A stretch of DNA of 21,316 nucleotides from a virus: positions 1 to 21,316 of the IMG/VR virus record IMGVR_UViG_3300045996_001658. One strand, given 5' to 3'. A program made the position numbers and the translations under genes. Positions 3,578 to 20,610 of the stretch are shown here, one piece after another. Below the pieces are notes generated by a model. The model did not search any database. It had not been told where the DNA came from and saw only the letters and a program-made list of their open reading frames with translations. Positions within the stretch are counted from its first letter, which is position 1, and each line of letters opens with the position of its first letter.

Positions 3578-3589
3578 CTAGTTTAGTGC
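3578..3589 (-). promoter_or_regulatory. GCACTAAACTAG gene-start box, copy 1 (first fibre gene)
   Basis: An exact consensus copy on the coding strand, 3 bases before the GTG start at 3574 and 3 bases after the TAG stop of the gpI-like gene. There is no Shine-Dalgarno between box and start. Function is unproven: promoter element, translation signal or boundary cassette. Confidence 0.6.
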
Positions 3590-4333: not shown

Positions 4334-5521
4334 TTACGGAGCCACCTGATGAATTGCAGTTGCAGCGATAATGCCGGCGACTGGTGCACCGTTGAGAAGG
4401 ATGGGAACATCAGCCGCAGGGTTGCTGATCACCGCGCGGAAGATGCCGAGCGGCACACCAGTTGCGGATTTAGCGCCACCAATGGCTGCTTCCAGGCCAC
4501 TGCGGTACACATAGCCGGGGGCGATGTCCGCGATGTCTCCGCCGATGGGCCGCGCGGAGATGAACTCGGATAGGGCCGCGGAGATTGCGTCGGTAATGGC
4601 GGTTTCACTGAGGCCAGCGATATTGTATAGCCAGACCTCGTATGAGACGGAGATTGCCTGTGCGGCCGCAGACTCAACCGTAGCTAGCACAGGCAGAGGG
4701 ACAACCTTAGTTTGAATGGCTTCGTTCACTGCCCCGAGGTCAGTCGATGGATCGCCGGCAGTGCCAGTGAGTGAGCCGGTCGCGTCAGCAACATAGACAG
4801 TCAGTCCGCCGTAGCCATCGGGGTAGGTGGGCGAGACCCGGGTAACGCCGATCGCTGAGCCATCAGCGCGGACGGCAGTGCGAGCAACGTAGTCATATGC
4901 GTCACTCGGGCCGTTTGGCGATAGGCTGCCAAGCTTCGCGCGGCAACGGATGCGAAGCGCCTCATCTTCCTCAGCCTCGAAACCAACAACACTCGCGGGG
5001 TTGGTGCAGGTTACGCCGGTGAAGGTCGTCACCATAACCGTGATCTCGTCGGCGAAGGAGGTGGATGCCTCGCCGATCTCACTGGCTTGAATGTCGACCA
5101 GCACATTAGTCGCCAGGGCGCCGACCACTACCGCCTCAGTGTTGACGTATTGTTTCCCGGTGATGGGATTCTTGACAATGAGGTCGCCGATCGAGAGGTT
5201 GTAGACGCCGCCGCTTGCGTTATCCAGGCGAACGACACCCGTTGCGAAGGTGGCCTCAATGCGCTCAACACCGTAGACATAGCGCGCGAGTAGCGTCAGC
5301 CAATCGCCAACCGCCAAATCGAGGTAGTTAGCCCGGGCAATGGCTGCTGTGAATTGGCTGAGGGCCGCGATGAGGGTTGCGACGATCGTGATAATCGTTC
5401 GCACTACTGCGCCCGGTCGCCAATTGGTGGTGGTGACACCGAGGGTGTTTAGCATCGTGTAGATGCTCGTCTTCACCTCATCAACGGTGAGTGGCGTGAT
5501 TAGGTCATTGATGGTAATCAC
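4334..5521 (-). CDS. Baseplate wedge protein, J-like (Mu gp47 type)
   Basis: A 395-residue protein starting at GTG 5521, overlapping the upstream TGA by four bases (GTGA). A GAGG lies 7 bases upstream, a good Shine-Dalgarno. The architecture fits the baseplate J family. The N-terminus (TPLTVDEVKTSIYTMLNTLG...WRPGAVVRTII) is followed by a small hydrophobic helix and YLDLAVGDWLTLLARYVYGVERI. A beta domain has GDLIVKNPITGKQYVNTEAV, then EEDEALRIRCRAKLGSLSPNGPSDAYDYVARTA, the most typical segment, and a final beta/alpha domain. The protein forms wedges around the hub that trigger sheath contraction. Position after the gp25-like gene matches P2 and Mu order. Confidence 0.9.
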   Translation of the reverse strand: MITINDLITPLTVDEVKTSIYTMLNTLGVTTTNWRPGAVVRTIITIVATLIAALSQFTAAIARANYLDLAVGDWLTLLARYVYGVERIEATFATGVVRLDNASGGVYNLSIGDLIVKNPITGKQYVNTEAVVVGALATNVLVDIQASEIGEASTSFADEITVMVTTFTGVTCTNPASVVGFEAEEDEALRIRCRAKLGSLSPNGPSDAYDYVARTAVRADGSAIGVTRVSPTYPDGYGGLTVYVADATGSLTGTAGDPSTDLGAVNEAIQTKVVPLPVLATVESAAAQAISVSYEVWLYNIAGLSETAITDAISAALSEFISARPIGGDIADIAPGYVYRSGLEAAIGGAKSATGVPLGIFRAVISNPAADVPILLNGAPVAGIIAATAIHQVAP

Positions 5522-5991
5522 AGCACAACCTCAAGTAGGGCCTCTAGCGACGTAACAGACATAATAGCGGTGAATTGGGTTTGCTCGGGGTTAGCGAGGA
5601 CGAATAGGCAGGTAACGGTGAGGGTCTTAGTCGCGTAGGAGTAGGAGAGCTCAACCGTGACATCGTCCACCCGGTCATCCTTCGCGAGCTCATTTTGGAT
5701 TTGCAGCGGGAGGGCGGTTATCTGCTCTTGCGTGAGCGGAGCCGACAGCAACGACACGAGGTCGAACCCAAAATCCGGATCATCCAACAACGACCCCTTG
5801 CGCGTCGACAGCCGGTGATAGGCATCCTGCGCGATGCTTTGCGCGGAGCTCATATCCGTCTCTGTCATGCTGGCGGTGAGGTCATCCGCGCACACCAGAT
5901 CCACGCCATAACCAAACGGTTCAACCGGCACAGATGACACCTTGGTCAGTAGTGCGGTCTGAGCGGCGATGAAATCTCTGACAACGTCCAC
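5518..5991 (-). CDS. Baseplate wedge protein, GPW/gp25-like (Mu gp46 type)
   Basis: A 157-residue protein starting at GTG 5991, 3 bases after a GCACTAAACTAG box. The segment AQDAYHRLSTRKGSLLDDPDFGFDLVSLL resembles the gp25/gpW core, in which a terminal repeat unit is read as 'RLxT.kGsl..dpdfG.dl'. The next segment, QIQNELAKDDRVDDVTVELSYS, is the usual C-terminal alpha/beta part. In family members this protein joins sheath and baseplate wedge. It precedes the J-like gene with a four-base overlap, so the two are translationally coupled. There is no normally spaced Shine-Dalgarno; an AGGG touches the start codon. Confidence 0.85.
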   Translation of the reverse strand: MDVVRDFIAAQTALLTKVSSVPVEPFGYGVDLVCADDLTASMTETDMSSAQSIAQDAYHRLSTRKGSLLDDPDFGFDLVSLLSAPLTQEQITALPLQIQNELAKDDRVDDVTVELSYSYATKTLTVTCLFVLANPEQTQFTAIMSVTSLEALLEVVL

Positions 5992-5994
5992 ACC

Positions 5995-6006
5995 CTAGTT
6001 TAGTGC
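5995..6006 (-). promoter_or_regulatory. GCACTAAACTAG gene-start box, copy 2 (gp25-like wedge)
   Basis: An exact consensus copy, 3 bases before the GTG at 5991 and 3 bases after the TAG stop of the hub-spike gene. Same spacing as copies 1 and 3. Confidence 0.6.
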
Positions 6007-9627: not shown

Positions 9628-9639
9628 TTAGTTTAGTGC
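9628..9639 (-). promoter_or_regulatory. GCACTAAACTAA gene-start box, copy 3 (tape measure)
   Basis: Consensus copy ending in A instead of G, 3 bases before the ATG at 9624. Its TAA is the stop codon of the frameshifted chaperone extension. An AGG lies 1 base from the ATG, too close for normal Shine-Dalgarno use. Confidence 0.6.
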
Positions 9640-10228
9640 TGCTGGGTATGGGCACGCGCGATTAAACGTAGGTTGATTAACCCCTCGGCAATCGCAGTCA
9701 TGCCCAGCATAGCTTGGGTGTTGTCCGGGTCGACACCGAACGCAGCAGCGAGGCTCTCAGCGGTTGTCAGCCAATTCCACTGTTGCGCCTTGTGCTGCTC
9801 GACTATTTTTTTAGCTGCGCGGCTTTCTTGCTGCCGGCGAGCGCGCTGCAAGCCAGCACGAGATCAACAATGATGCCAGGAGTCTCATCAATCCAGCGCC
9901 CGAATACCTCAGCGCTTGGGTATACGCGACAGGGCATGACGAACTGCTCAGCCGCTAGCGTATCGGATTTCTCGGAGTCAGCGAACTTGCGGAATAGCGC
10001 GCCCGGAGGACGCTTGACGATCACCAACCCGCGAACAGTCTCAACCCGTTCGATGTTGGATGCGCCATGCTCGCTAACGGCTTTATCGTACGCCTCTTCA
10101 TCGGCCAGCTGGCGCTTGGCCGCTGCCAACTCCGCATCATCCGCGCTCGCCGCTTCAGCTGCCGCCCTAGCCTTCGCCCGATTAGCAATCTCCGCCCGAA
10201 TGGCCTCTAGCTCTGCTTTCGCACTCAT
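9633..10228 (-). CDS. Tail assembly chaperone, long form made by -1 frameshift (G-T type)
   Basis: The short chaperone frame ends CTA AAA AAA TAG at 9803. The -1 frame across the same A7 run stays open to a TAA at 9633. A slip on A AAA AAA at 9806-9812 would give 141 + 57 = 198 residues, continuing IVEQHKAQQWNWLTTAESLAAAFG and ending AHTQQH. This is the lambda G/GT arrangement kept in many long-tailed phages, directly before the tape measure. The ATG at 9851 in the -1 frame is not needed and lies within the short form's C-terminus. Downstream structure was not found by eye. Frameshift efficiency is unknown. Confidence 0.8.
9803..10228 (-). CDS. Tail assembly chaperone, short form (G type)
   Basis: A 141-residue protein from ATG 10228. 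The N-terminal half is highly helical (MSAKAELEAIRAEIANRAKARAAAEAAS). The second half contains VKRPPGALFRKFADS and VYPSAEVFGRWIDETPGIIVDLVLA, a layout typical of the small acidic/helical chaperones that coat the tape measure during tail assembly. It ends KKAAQLKK at the slippery A7. There is no Shine-Dalgarno. On the coding strand a TATCAT hexamer sits 7 bases before the ATG, so a near-leaderless promoter is possible. Confidence 0.85.
   Translation of the reverse strand: MSAKAELEAIRAEIANRAKARAAAEAASADDAELAAAKRQLADEEAYDKAVSEHGASNIERVETVRGLVIVKRPPGALFRKFADSEKSDTLAAEQFVMPCRVYPSAEVFGRWIDETPGIIVDLVLACSALAGSKKAAQLKK
9806..9812 (-). other. Slippery heptamer A AAA AAA for programmed -1 frameshift
   Basis: Coding-strand A7 in phase X XXY YYZ with the chaperone frame (CTA AAA AAA), followed at once by the TAG stop. 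The -1 frame continues for 57 codons. Position, phase and context match known tail-chaperone slip sites. Confidence 0.82.
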
Positions 10229-15273: not shown

Positions 15274-15858
15274 TTACTTAGCTTTCGGCGTCACGCCGAG
15301 TTGGAGAGACGTTGGGGTGTGGACGATTGCAGGCCTGGGGTTGGACAAACCCATTTGGATGTCCAGCGCGTGAGCTTGCGGAGAGAGGTAGGTGACAGCA
15401 GACGAATCAGCCGAAGTGGCGACCGTGGAGGTCGCGTTGATGGCCGGCACGTAGGGATTGCCGGCGGGGAGATTAGAAACAACCGCTTTGGCCTGCTCGA
15501 TTGGCAGGGTGTCGAGAGTCTTGATCAACTCCGGGGTGAGGTCGGGGCGGGTGGCGTAAAATGCCTTGCGATCATTCGCGGCTTTTTCCGCGCGCAACGC
15601 AGCCAATTCCTGACCATACGCCTGCACGGTCTTGCTGAGCGACGTAACCGCAGCGACGGACGCAGACTCGGCAACAGCCGCTTTCGCATCTTCCTTCGCC
15701 GGCTCATCCTCAGCAGCCATCTCAGCGTCATACGCGGCTAACGCGCGCTTAGCGCGAGCTCGCTTGACTTCATCCTTCTCATCCGGGTCTTCAGACGCAG
15801 CAACGAGCGCAGATCGCGCATCGAGCTTGTCTTTCTTATCTTCGTCTTCTTTGGCCAT
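15274..15858 (-). CDS. Scaffold protein, nested internal start within the protease gene
   Basis: An in-frame ATG at 15858 (residue 269 of the protease ORF) would give a separate 194-residue protein starting MAKEDEDKKDK. It has an acidic/basic helical N-terminus, a coiled-coil-like middle (SLSKTVQAYGQELAALRAEK) and a Pro/Ser-rich C-terminus, a typical scaffold. A GCACTACACTAA box ends 10 bases before this ATG, with the same spacing and similar flanks as before the sheath gene. Nested scaffolds sharing the 3' end of a head protease gene are known from lambda C/Nu3. Separate expression is inferred from the box and the domain boundary. Confidence 0.62.
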   Translation of the reverse strand: MAKEDEDKKDKLDARSALVAASEDPDEKDEVKRARAKRALAAYDAEMAAEDEPAKEDAKAAVAESASVAAVTSLSKTVQAYGQELAALRAEKAANDRKAFYATRPDLTPELIKTLDTLPIEQAKAVVSNLPAGNPYVPAINATSTVATSADSSAVTYLSPQAHALDIQMGLSNPRPAIVHTPTSLQLGVTPKAK

Positions 15859-16662
15859 ATCGGTATCTTTAGTGTAGTGCGATGAATCGATGGCCGACGG
15901 AGCGGCCGGGGCAACAACGGAGAAATCTCGCGCGAGCACAGCGTCAAGGGTTGATACTGAGTCTGCGAGTTTTGCGGTTACGGCAGCGGCACCTACGCGA
16001 ACGCCGGCTTGGAGAGATTGAATCTCCTCGAGCGCCAGGGGGCGGTGTTCGGCGACGTGCGCGAAGAACACTCCGGCCATGGCATCAACGCTAGACTGGA
16101 CAGCAGCTCTAGCCGCGTCTGTCATCGGCTGCATCGGGTTGCCGTCGGCTTTTCGCTCGCCGCTAGTAATGATATTGAACTTAACGCCACTACCAGCTGC
16201 CGCCGCAGATTGGTCGGGCAGGATGGCAATCACGCCAATGCTACCGATTGTCGCGGTTTCGGAGATGATGATTTCATCCGCGACCGCTGACCATGCATAC
16301 ATAGATGAACAGGCTTGGCTATCACAGAACGCGATGAGTTTTTTTCCCGCCCTATCAACGTCCGCGCGCACACCTTTAGCGCCGTCAAAGCAGCCGTTCA
16401 CATCCCCGCCGGGGGAGTCGATGTGCAGAATGATAGTGGTGGCCGGCGACTCAAGCGCTAGCTGGACCCTTGCCCGCACTGCTGCGTAGCTATCCAACCC
16501 ACCCGCGCCATTGTATGACATCGGGCCGGAGATACGGACGATTGCTTTATCCCCAACTAATGAGAATGCAGGCCCTGCAACTGAAGGGGCACACGGCATG
16601 CCGATAGCACTAGGGCTAACAGCTAGGACGCCGAACGGGCTATAGATTGGCTGGGCCGACAC
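15274..16662 (-). CDS. Head maturation protease, S49 (SppA-like), fused to scaffold
   Basis: A 462-residue protein from GTG 16662; a GCACTAGACTAG box ends 6 bases upstream and no Shine-Dalgarno is seen. Residues about 30-240 form a ClpP/crotonase-fold S49 peptidase: IILHIDSPGGDVNG (about 77-90), the probable nucleophile Ser119 in QACSSMYAW, and the probable general base Lys171 in SGERKADGNP, corresponding to the Ser-Lys dyad of SppA. Residues about 269-462 are a helical scaffold domain. The protease would trim scaffold and itself from the prohead. The domain boundary contains a second box and an in-frame ATG (nested scaffold). Confidence 0.9.
   Translation of the reverse strand: MSAQPIYSPFGVLAVSPSAIGMPCAPSVAGPAFSLVGDKAIVRISGPMSYNGAGGLDSYAAVRARVQLALESPATTIILHIDSPGGDVNGCFDGAKGVRADVDRAGKKLIAFCDSQACSSMYAWSAVADEIIISETATIGSIGVIAILPDQSAAAAGSGVKFNIITSGERKADGNPMQPMTDAARAAVQSSVDAMAGVFFAHVAEHRPLALEEIQSLQAGVRVGAAAVTAKLADSVSTLDAVLARDFSVVAPAAPSAIDSSHYTKDTDMAKEDEDKKDKLDARSALVAASEDPDEKDEVKRARAKRALAAYDAEMAAEDEPAKEDAKAAVAESASVAAVTSLSKTVQAYGQELAALRAEKAANDRKAFYATRPDLTPELIKTLDTLPIEQAKAVVSNLPAGNPYVPAINATSTVATSADSSAVTYLSPQAHALDIQMGLSNPRPAIVHTPTSLQLGVTPKAK
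15869..15880 (-). promoter_or_regulatory. GCACTACACTAA gene-start box, copy 5 (internal scaffold start)
   Basis: A variant box inside the protease/scaffold gene, 10 bases before the internal ATG 15858. The single A-to-C change from GCACTAAACTAA makes the in-frame codon TAC (Tyr) instead of TAA, so the long frame stays open. Confidence 0.55.
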
Positions 16663-16668
16663 TCACAA

Positions 16669-16680
16669 CTAGTCTAGTGC
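16669..16680 (-). promoter_or_regulatory. GCACTAGACTAG gene-start box, copy 6 (head protease)
   Basis: A one-base variant, 6 bases before GTG 16662. It overlaps the end of the portal gene: its codons GCA CTA GAC TAG encode Ala-Leu-Asp-stop, so the box includes the portal stop codon. Confidence 0.6.
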
Positions 16681-18099
16681 GGAAGGGGCGGGCGCAACGG
16701 AGTCTGCGGCTGCCATGGCTGCGTTGTTATCTGCGGCAGAGTCGGCGGGCTCAGCTGGGGGCGGTTCGACCTTCACATCCGGGGTAGATAGGATATGGCC
16801 CTCTTTGGGTGCGATTTTCTTGCCGGTGAGCGGCACACCGAATCGACGGAGGATTTCCTCAGTGTCGAGTTCATAGCCGGCGGCTGTGACTGCCTCGGTC
16901 AATGACACGATTGCACCGGCTGCTTTGCTGAGCGACTCTGCCTCAACCACGCGATCAGCCGGGGGAGCGGTATCCCAGCTGACGCGAACGAGATCATCAT
17001 ATGCCCGGGCACCAAACAACGCGACTGCCCAGGGCGGGAATACCTGAGTATTGATGCAGTGGCTGATAATGTCCGCCGTTTCGCGGATTAGGTCAGCGCG
17101 GATAGTGCGGTGAATGTCCGCGTTAGCAAATCCGCTGCCGCCTGTGGTGGTGACAATCTGCCCGGCGAGGGCGATCATAATCTCATTGTTCGCCGACTCA
17201 ATCTCCTTATCGAATACCTCCCACCCTCGGCCGGTGGTTTCGAGGATGTCGGCATCCCATCCCTCGGGGAGTGCGATGGTGGTATTGTATCCCCAGGCTA
17301 GGAGCTTTTGAACGACCTCGGCTCGCTCGGTTTCGCTGCTGCCCTTCATGGTCTTTGCGACACGGGCGGGGTTAGCGAGCGCACGGCTAAAATTGCTGCG
17401 CGCAAGCATGGCGTGCTCCTTCACAATGAACGCGCGGCCGAGAGAGTGCCAATCTCCCAGCTGCCAGGGGTTGAGCTTCCCCGCCGTTGCCATCACCCAT
17501 CGACCGTCACCCGGCTGGATCGGCAGCATGCCAGCAACACTGTTGTAATACCAACGCCCCTCGATTGGGATGTAGCGCAGGTATTCGGGTTCTAGGCGGA
17601 TGAATAGGGGGAATTTACGCCCCTGCACCGGTACGAGCTCGCCAACTGCGAGGCCCAGCTTCACCAAATCACCAGTGAACGCGGCCAACTCACCCGGCGG
17701 CAGCATCTCATCAAACATGCTCCGGCTACTATTCTCAGCCTGTAGCAGCTCAATCATCTCACCGTTACCGCGAAAGCGCTTGGGTAGTGCGATGAGGCCG
17801 CTAGTTCGCGTCTTCAGCAGACCGCTGATCTCACCATCCCTTCGCATGCTCCGGCTCAACCGGCCAATCAGGGTCATATCACCCCGATCTGCCTGCATGG
17901 TCGCGGCTTCCAGATCCGCCATCAGCCATCGCGTTTGCGACGTTGGCAGCATCTGCAACTGCCCGCCCATCCGCTCGCGTGTCTCAACGACTTGAGCAGA
18001 TTCAATGTCCGGCCCCATTGGTTGAGCAAGCCCGTCATAAACAGACACGCCCATTAGGGACTTTGCGGCGTTAGATAGCTTGCTTAGAAATGATGCCAC
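16669..18099 (-). CDS. Portal protein, DUF935 (Mu gp29-like)
   Basis: A 476-residue protein from GTG 18099, 5 bases after a GCACTAAACTAG box. It matches DUF935 portals in order: MADLEAATMQADRGDMTLIGRLSRSMRRDGEISGLLKTRTSGL, a wing region, then the signature LAGQIVTTTGGSGFANADIHRTIRADLIRETADIISHCIN near residue 315, followed by a C-terminal region with LDTEEILRRFGVPL. The Pro/Ala-rich tail (about 50 residues) is probably disordered. It forms the dodecameric DNA gate at one capsid vertex. No MuF-like head morphogenesis gene follows, unlike Mu. Confidence 0.93.
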   Translation of the reverse strand: MASFLSKLSNAAKSLMGVSVYDGLAQPMGPDIESAQVVETRERMGGQLQMLPTSQTRWLMADLEAATMQADRGDMTLIGRLSRSMRRDGEISGLLKTRTSGLIALPKRFRGNGEMIELLQAENSSRSMFDEMLPPGELAAFTGDLVKLGLAVGELVPVQGRKFPLFIRLEPEYLRYIPIEGRWYYNSVAGMLPIQPGDGRWVMATAGKLNPWQLGDWHSLGRAFIVKEHAMLARSNFSRALANPARVAKTMKGSSETERAEVVQKLLAWGYNTTIALPEGWDADILETTGRGWEVFDKEIESANNEIMIALAGQIVTTTGGSGFANADIHRTIRADLIRETADIISHCINTQVFPPWAVALFGARAYDDLVRVSWDTAPPADRVVEAESLSKAAGAIVSLTEAVTAAGYELDTEEILRRFGVPLTGKKIAPKEGHILSTPDVKVEPPPAEPADSAADNNAAMAAADSVAPAPSALD

Positions 18100-18104
18100 G
18101 CAAA

Positions 18105-18116
18105 CTAGTTTAGTGC
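18105..18116 (-). promoter_or_regulatory. GCACTAAACTAG gene-start box, copy 7 (portal)
   Basis: An exact consensus copy, 5 bases before the GTG at 18099 and in the 44-base gap after the terminase stop at 18144. No Shine-Dalgarno precedes the GTG. Confidence 0.6.
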
Positions 18117-19851: not shown

Positions 19852-20610
19852 TCAACCGAGCTCGTGTCGCAGGCGTGCCGAGGCGCTTGCTTCTAGCCGG
19901 CGAACATCCGCCACGTTGATGCGTAGCTCTGTCGCTACCTCGGCCTGTGTTGCACCTGTGAGGCGCATCCTCATGACGTCGCACTCTTGCGCCGGTAGCT
20001 CATCAATCGCGGCGCGCAGCTCTGCTATCTCTCGGGCTGTGTCAATCGCCGCTTCCGCCTCAGGCTCAACCATCTCCGGCGCAACATCGACCGGTCCGCC
20101 GTTCAGCGCGAACCAGATCCTCCCAGCCTTCGGCGCCTTCTTTCCGCTGCGAATGAAATCCGCTTGCACTGCCTCAATGGTGGGTTCGATACCTTGGGCG
20201 GCCAATCGTTCGGCGCATCGGCGGATGGCATCTAGGCGCATCACAGCATATCGGCTGAGACCGTCGTGCAGCGCAGCTGTCAGTACGCCCCTCATCGCCA
20301 AGTCAATCTCATGCATGGCGTATGTTGACCACCTCGTACCCCGGCTGACGTCAAACCTCGACACCGCGCCTATCAACCCACGTTGCCCGCCATAGCCCGC
20401 ACATGCGGCCGCAACCATGTCATCCCGCAAATCCGGCCGACCGACCATCCCGCTCCACCGATTCGCACGTTGGATGACAAGTCGCATAGTGGAAGCGATG
20501 ATGCGATTCCGCGCGTCAATGTTCCCAGCTTGCGCCAATGTCACCAGTCGGCAGAGCTCATCAGCCGGCAGTGTCTCACATGTGGCATTCAGTAACACCT
20601 GCCGCGACAT
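19852..20610 (-). CDS. Divergent sigma-70-family protein between terminase subunit genes
   Basis: A 252-residue protein from ATG 20610, which overlaps the previous TGA by one base. AGAGGGG lies 6 bases upstream. Region order fits a sigma-70 factor: region 1.2/2.1-like LPADELCRLVTLAQAGNIDARNRIIASTMRLVIQRANRW (14-52), regions 2.2-2.4 GLIGAVSRFDVSRGTRWSTYA (78-98), region 3-like LDAIRRCAERLAAQGIEPTIEAVQ (126-149) and region 4 ELRAAIDELPAQECDVMRMRLTGATQAEVATELRINVADVRRLEASASARLR (197-248). The WWIRQA motif after STYA is replaced by HEIDLA (100-105), so the tryptophans used for -10 melting are missing. It may be a phage late sigma factor with changed specificity, or a sigma-derived packaging protein. 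Confidence 0.8.
   Translation of the reverse strand: MSRQVLLNATCETLPADELCRLVTLAQAGNIDARNRIIASTMRLVIQRANRWSGMVGRPDLRDDMVAAACAGYGGQRGLIGAVSRFDVSRGTRWSTYAMHEIDLAMRGVLTAALHDGLSRYAVMRLDAIRRCAERLAAQGIEPTIEAVQADFIRSGKKAPKAGRIWFALNGGPVDVAPEMVEPEAEAAIDTAREIAELRAAIDELPAQECDVMRMRLTGATQAEVATELRINVADVRRLEASASARLRHELG

Follow-up and report, generated by a model that had tools for sequence, protein, structure and literature searches.

Does the short DNA box that lies inside the head maturation protease gene of this phage mark a place where two separate genes were joined by the loss of a stop codon, or does it control an inner start codon from which the scaffold protein is made? The window, meaning the whole stretch of 21,316 bases that was analysed, is a virus record whose main genes all lie on the minus strand; like most of the related contigs, it is a fragment. 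Its closest relatives have about twenty genes in common with it, in conserved order. A scan of genomes for hosts turned up a single relative, located in an Actinomycetota MAG on a contig of 42.6 kb, a result that weakly suggests an Actinomycetota host for these phages. The features discussed are listed in Table 1. Ahead of the tape measure gene, two overlapping open reading frames (9633-9851 and 9803-10228, minus strand) resemble the usual tail-chaperone frameshift pair.

Table 1. Positions of the genes and box copies of the window, and of the split genes of two relatives
Feature	Position	Strand	Remarks
Sigma-70-like protein	19852..20610	(-)	between the small and large terminase genes; PF04545 1.7e-6 (region 4), PF04542 0.033 (region 2)
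Portal protein (Mu portal family)	16669..18099	(-)	PF06074 4e-40
S49 head maturation protease with in-frame C-terminal scaffold, 462 aa	15274..16662	(-)	PF01343 2.1e-26, phrog_53 8.1e-58
Nested scaffold, 194 aa (candidate separate product)	15274..15858	(-)	in-frame ATG 15858 = protease Met269
TAC codon, Tyr263	15874..15876	(-)	stop if 15874 were A or G (A gives TAA)
Box GCACTAAACTAG	18105..18116	(-)	5 nt ahead of portal GTG (18099)
Box GCACTAGACTAG	16669..16680	(-)	6 nt ahead of protease GTG (16662); final TAG = portal stop
Box GCACTACACTAA	15869..15880	(-)	inside protease gene, 10 nt ahead of scaffold ATG; codons 261-265
Box GCACTAAACTAA	12247..12258	(-)	10 nt ahead of tail sheath ATG (12236)
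Box GCACTAAACTAA	9628..9639	(-)	3 nt ahead of tape measure ATG (9624); inner TAA ends chaperone-overlapping ORF
Box GCACTAAACTAG	5995..6006	(-)	3 nt ahead of gpW-like GTG (5991)
Box GCACTAAACTAG	3578..3589	(-)	3 nt ahead of spike/fibre-region GTG (3574)
Split protease/scaffold, L136	5776-6669		4-nt ATGA: protease stop overlaps scaffold start
Split protease/scaffold, L144	6381-7391		4-nt ATGA: protease stop overlaps scaffold start

The probable nested scaffold start

The protease is an S49 head maturation protease of the lambda gpC type. It has a Peptidase_S49 domain, aligns with lambda C by BLASTP (2e-24, 33% identity), and its Ser119 and Lys171, both invariant in the family alignment (A5), there pair with Ser166 and Lys218 of lambda gpC, which we take to be the catalytic pair of that enzyme. 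In an AlphaFold model built from 35 family members, the protease domain is confident up to about residue 245, the linker of residues 253-268 has a pLDDT<50, and helices begin at residue 271. The model places Met269 at the domain boundary and the box codons within the low-confidence linker, where they are predicted to be disordered.

A single-sequence search of viral_contigs returned no relatives of the protease. Alignment-based searches for protease, portal and sheath yielded 240 loci, which contained 79 distinct proteases. Among the proteases of about 78 related phages, the complete ones are, with two exceptions, single frames of roughly 410-590 residues that include the scaffold. An in-frame ATG is present at the junction in all 66 non-redundant family members, the window included, against a chance expectation of 46%, and an SD core stands 4-10 nt ahead of this ATG in 50 of the 66, compared with 39 of 497 other internal ATGs (7.8%). 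These counts are strong evidence that the family as a whole has an in-frame nested start for the scaffold. The gene of the window phage itself, with an in-frame start near the domain boundary and a C-terminus common to both products, very probably carries a nested scaffold.

An earlier note, made from the sequence alone, had placed an in-frame ATG here and derived a scaffold of 194 residues from it; both the ATG and the length are correct. Its prediction of a separate scaffold beginning MAKEDEDK is well supported by the conservation of the junction ATG. The frame and the conserved inner ATG are read directly from the sequence. That ribosomes would start at this ATG, so that the C-terminal part of the protease is made separately as the scaffold, is probable, but this step we infer rather than read.

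Nested scaffolds are textbook knowledge, and the new part of the finding is the box ahead of the inner start, not the nested scaffold itself. The lambda tail is non-contractile, and to our knowledge no comparable repeated box precedes lambda nu3. The comparison with lambda and Mu rests on the public records NC_001416 and NC_000929. As in the window, the S49 protease gene of lambda contains an in-frame internal ATG for the scaffold (C 4418-5737, nu3 5132-5737 in NC_001416), and the gene order is portal, protease/scaffold, decoration protein and major capsid protein; compared with the junction of the window, nu3 is annotated to start further upstream, at codon 239. By BLASTP, that junction aligns near residue 313 of lambda gpC, where an in-frame Met is also found (GGRMTKET; L337). 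The likeness to Mu (NC_000929) lies in gene Z, which starts inside the protease gene I and shares its frame, and in the portal and capsid proteins, which in the window are of the Mu-type and gpT families, respectively. The late genes of Mu use the activator C (PMC4461284).

Boxes in the window and its relatives

The box of the window is 12 bp long and has a -10-like core, TANNNT. Its pattern, GCACTANACTAR, has seven matches on the coding strand of the whole window and none on the opposite strand, the chance level being 0.01 per strand in dinucleotide shuffles. Every one of the seven copies has an ATG or GTG start 3-10 nt downstream. A -35 element would be sought about 17 nt upstream, but by eye the flanks of the seven boxes contain no common hexamer there. 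None of the roughly 240 related loci repeats the window's own box, and DNA pattern matches to it elsewhere were rejected as chance-like in appearance.

Boxes of other sequence are found in several relatives. In L175, TCAGTTCCTTAG occurs in four identical copies, all on the same strand. One precedes the portal gene, one is in the protease gene ahead of the scaffold ATG, one lies within the gene that precedes the sheath gene, and one stands before the spike region; the next ATG follows after 24, 14, 5 and about 20 nt, respectively. In L195 and L198, CTACAATAG is located ahead of the portal gene, in the protease gene (with 11 nt to the scaffold ATG), within the gene that precedes the sheath gene, and ahead of the tape measure gene, one copy in L195 lying about 60 nt ahead of the tape measure ATG. 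The boxes of L175 and L195 in the gene before the sheath are unlike in sequence, yet they occupy the identical codon, 5 nt from the identical ATG. In the window and the relatives checked, the coding strand carries every full-score copy.

Per-contig k-mer enrichment was swamped by GC-rich coding repeats and was replaced by a comparison of the region upstream of the portal gene with the scaffold junction. Among 48 phages, a 12-mer shared by the two regions with at most one mismatch (0-1) is present only in the window, L175 and L195/L198. In a shuffle test, such a match arose in 0 of 200 shuffles for the window, L175 and L198, and in 0.5% for L195. The presence of a box at this position in three kinds of phage is a direct observation. 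Since these boxes differ at matching sites, the places are kept while the box sequence changes from phage to phage.

L182 carries GCGCTA(C/G)CCTA(G/C) just ahead of several starts. The count is weak evidence, as several matches also arose with the reversed pattern used as a control; more weight falls on how close the copies lie to starts. A first apparent L182 box, CGACACCGAT, was dropped because it lay mostly within genes. L331, a contig of L182, has two adjacent -10-like boxes, GCGCTACAATAG (of the L195 type) and GCGCTAGCCTAC, ahead of one start. L235 contains a weaker box set, GTGGTANNAT. Many GC-rich relatives without the sigma-like gene described below seem to have another motif (TAGTT ... 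GTGGCT) some 10-45 nt ahead of the portal gene, with TAGTT at about 35-45 nt, possibly a different promoter.

Function of the box

The sigma-70-like protein of the window matches phrog_351 (5.7e-20) and sigma factors in the PDB (from 2.4e-7, spanning both regions). Its assignment to the sigma-70 family rests on region 4, which is over the cut-off, with region 2 weak in the window; in L182, L187 and L198, region 2 is over the cut-off. Of the 53 contigs that cover 900 nt or more ahead of the large terminase gene, only L175, L182, L187, L198 and L235 have homologues at the corresponding place; L195 is near-identical to L198 and starts further downstream. All phages encoding the sigma-like protein fall into a single clade (SH-aLRT 97). 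The TANNNT core, that of a sigma -10 element, is present in four of five box types (window, L182, L195 and L235) and missing from the L175 box (core TTCCTT).

A reasonably likely role for the box is that of an internal promoter, specific to the phage, for the nested scaffold. Transcription from it would give a short-leadered or leaderless scaffold mRNA and thus scaffold in excess over protease. The identical box type precedes the portal, protease, sheath and tape measure genes and two further tail genes, and the phage-encoded sigma-70-like protein may read it, a step that is less certain than the promoter itself. All phages with the shared portal/scaffold 12-mer encode the sigma-like protein (L195 by way of L198), which speaks for the promoter. 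Several observations speak against it: no -35 element was recognisable by eye near the boxes, the second position of the -10 hexamer is not an A in the L175 box, a search of L187, which encodes the sigma-like protein, found no box, and L182 has boxes but none at the scaffold. The link between sigma-like protein and box comes from a handful of genomes in one clade, and the 3-nt spacing of three window copies is tight for a promoter if transcripts begin anywhere other than at the start codon itself.

In mycobacteria, leaderless RTG starts that have a normal -10 hexamer occur commonly (PMC4633059). In the family as a whole, none of 46 portal starts has an SD, which fits leaderless or short-leadered portal transcripts; 83 of 98 sheath starts have one. 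Late promoters that depend on phage-encoded sigma factors or RNA polymerases (T4 gp55; the giant phage AR9) are likewise short elements repeated ahead of late genes, although their enzymes and motifs differ from those considered here. Late promoters of AR9 also occur inside open reading frames and could yield N-terminally truncated proteins (PMC5312081). A broader scenario, which we put forward only tentatively, is a contractile-tailed clade with a fast-changing sigma-like factor. Its late-promoter box would be swapped genome-wide in concert at fixed sites, one of them in the protease gene and driving the nested scaffold, and each new box would be fitted to the protease frame.

The box may instead be an operator, at which a phage regulator, as a repressor or by blocking elongation in the manner of a "stoperator", represses or times the late genes. 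L5-type stoperators have one orientation and a phage-specific sequence. Asymmetric short repeats in one orientation near starts, differing in sequence among relatives, are the pattern of repressor-site co-evolution, and L182 and L187 carry an integrase, so that part of the clade is probably temperate. We nevertheless consider an operator unlikely, because the boxes occur in head and tail genes alike (the window and most contigs being fragmentary), TANNNT recurs in most box types, and the box-bearing clade is the clade of the sigma-like gene. L5-type stoperators are bound by a repressor, whereas in the window clade the boxes go together with a sigma-like gene and most box types have the -10-like core. 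Stoperators are 13-bp sites of transcription regulation and have been contrasted with the start-associated sequences (SAS) of mycobacteriophages (PMC3203893).

That the box acts in the mRNA as a signal for translation initiation, the role proposed for the SAS, is more doubtful still. All seven window copies are at the location of an SD, and none of the seven genes that they precede has an SD core, compared with 3 of 17 box-free genes; the window phage or its host seems to be poor in SD-led starts. However, by eye the box is unlike the SD consensus AGGAGG, the spacing in L175 and L195 is too variable for a ribosome-binding site, and turnover of the box sequence between phages would be unexpected for a signal read by conserved ribosomes. 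The SAS of cluster K mycobacteriophages, GGGATAGGAGCCC, is conserved across subclusters, and its function is unproven (PMC3203893). It resembles the window boxes as a short asymmetric repeat, mostly in one orientation and just ahead of start codons. The window box is not a cluster K SAS: its sequence is unlike GGGATAGGAGCCC and varies among relatives, it has no SD-like part, and one copy lies inside a gene.

That the protease copy has no regulatory role, the scaffold being translated from a long mRNA as in lambda, is very improbable. Most relatives do have an SD and no box at the junction, but only about 1e-5 copies are expected in the 30 nt before the inner ATG (an estimate from the pattern length), and different boxes occupy the corresponding place in L175 and L195/L198. 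Moreover, only 3.5% of synonymous recodings of this stretch restore the box, so its presence is not forced by the peptide.

The middle base of the protease copy

The box copy inside the protease gene differs from GCACTAAACTAR at a single base, and the protease frame runs through it as TCG CAC TAC ACT AAA (S-H-Y-T-K). The earlier note had recognised this base as the one that would create a stop codon, in the same place where another copy ends the extension of the tail chaperone. This is borne out, as an A at 15874 would turn the codon of Tyr263 into TAA, and the TAA at 9635-9633, in the identical register, is the stop of the frame overlapping the chaperone. The equivalent base is a G in the copy ahead of the protease gene, where no stop needs avoiding. 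The altered base is a variable box position anyway, and the change at 15874 is therefore less dramatic than had been implied.

The frame in which a box is read limits its sequence. In register 1, the box cannot be translated without a stop, owing to its TAG/TAA end. In register 2, that of the protease copy of the window, only C or T is allowed as the third base of the TAN triplet, and the window has C. In register 3, that of the protease copies of L175 and L195, the base at the TAN position is unconstrained. As the protease copy must be translated, its otherwise free middle base would have to be a pyrimidine, which, as TAC, would keep the protease frame open. These rules account for the C at 15874 and make an ancestral stop loss needless. 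Thus, of the two origins offered by the earlier note, a box kept under two constraints is well supported, and the joining of protease and scaffold genes by stop loss is not.

A dedicated, repeated control site for an inner start, kept in position and swapped in sequence, would show a regulatory site and a protein frame sharing the same bases. If the promoter reading is true, every box that enters the protease gene must obey the register rules, and the locus would lend itself to direct tests of how phages adjust the ratio of scaffold to protease, and of the joint change of a phage sigma factor and its promoters.

An origin of the fused gene in an A-to-C change inside the box here is extremely improbable: although the only stop-blocking base is the one unlike the majority of copies, and two distant relatives have split genes, the base also varies in the copy ahead of the protease gene, and nearly all complete relatives, every close one included, are fused, most of them with no box at the junction, so that the fusion is older than the box. 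The split versions that the earlier note had proposed to look for do exist, but only in the outlying L136 and L144, where the two genes are joined by a short overlap without a box; L136 is distant from the window in a tree computed without L144. A sequencing error at 15874 is also made less likely by the fusion of all close kin, since an A at this position would make the window phage the sole split one among them.
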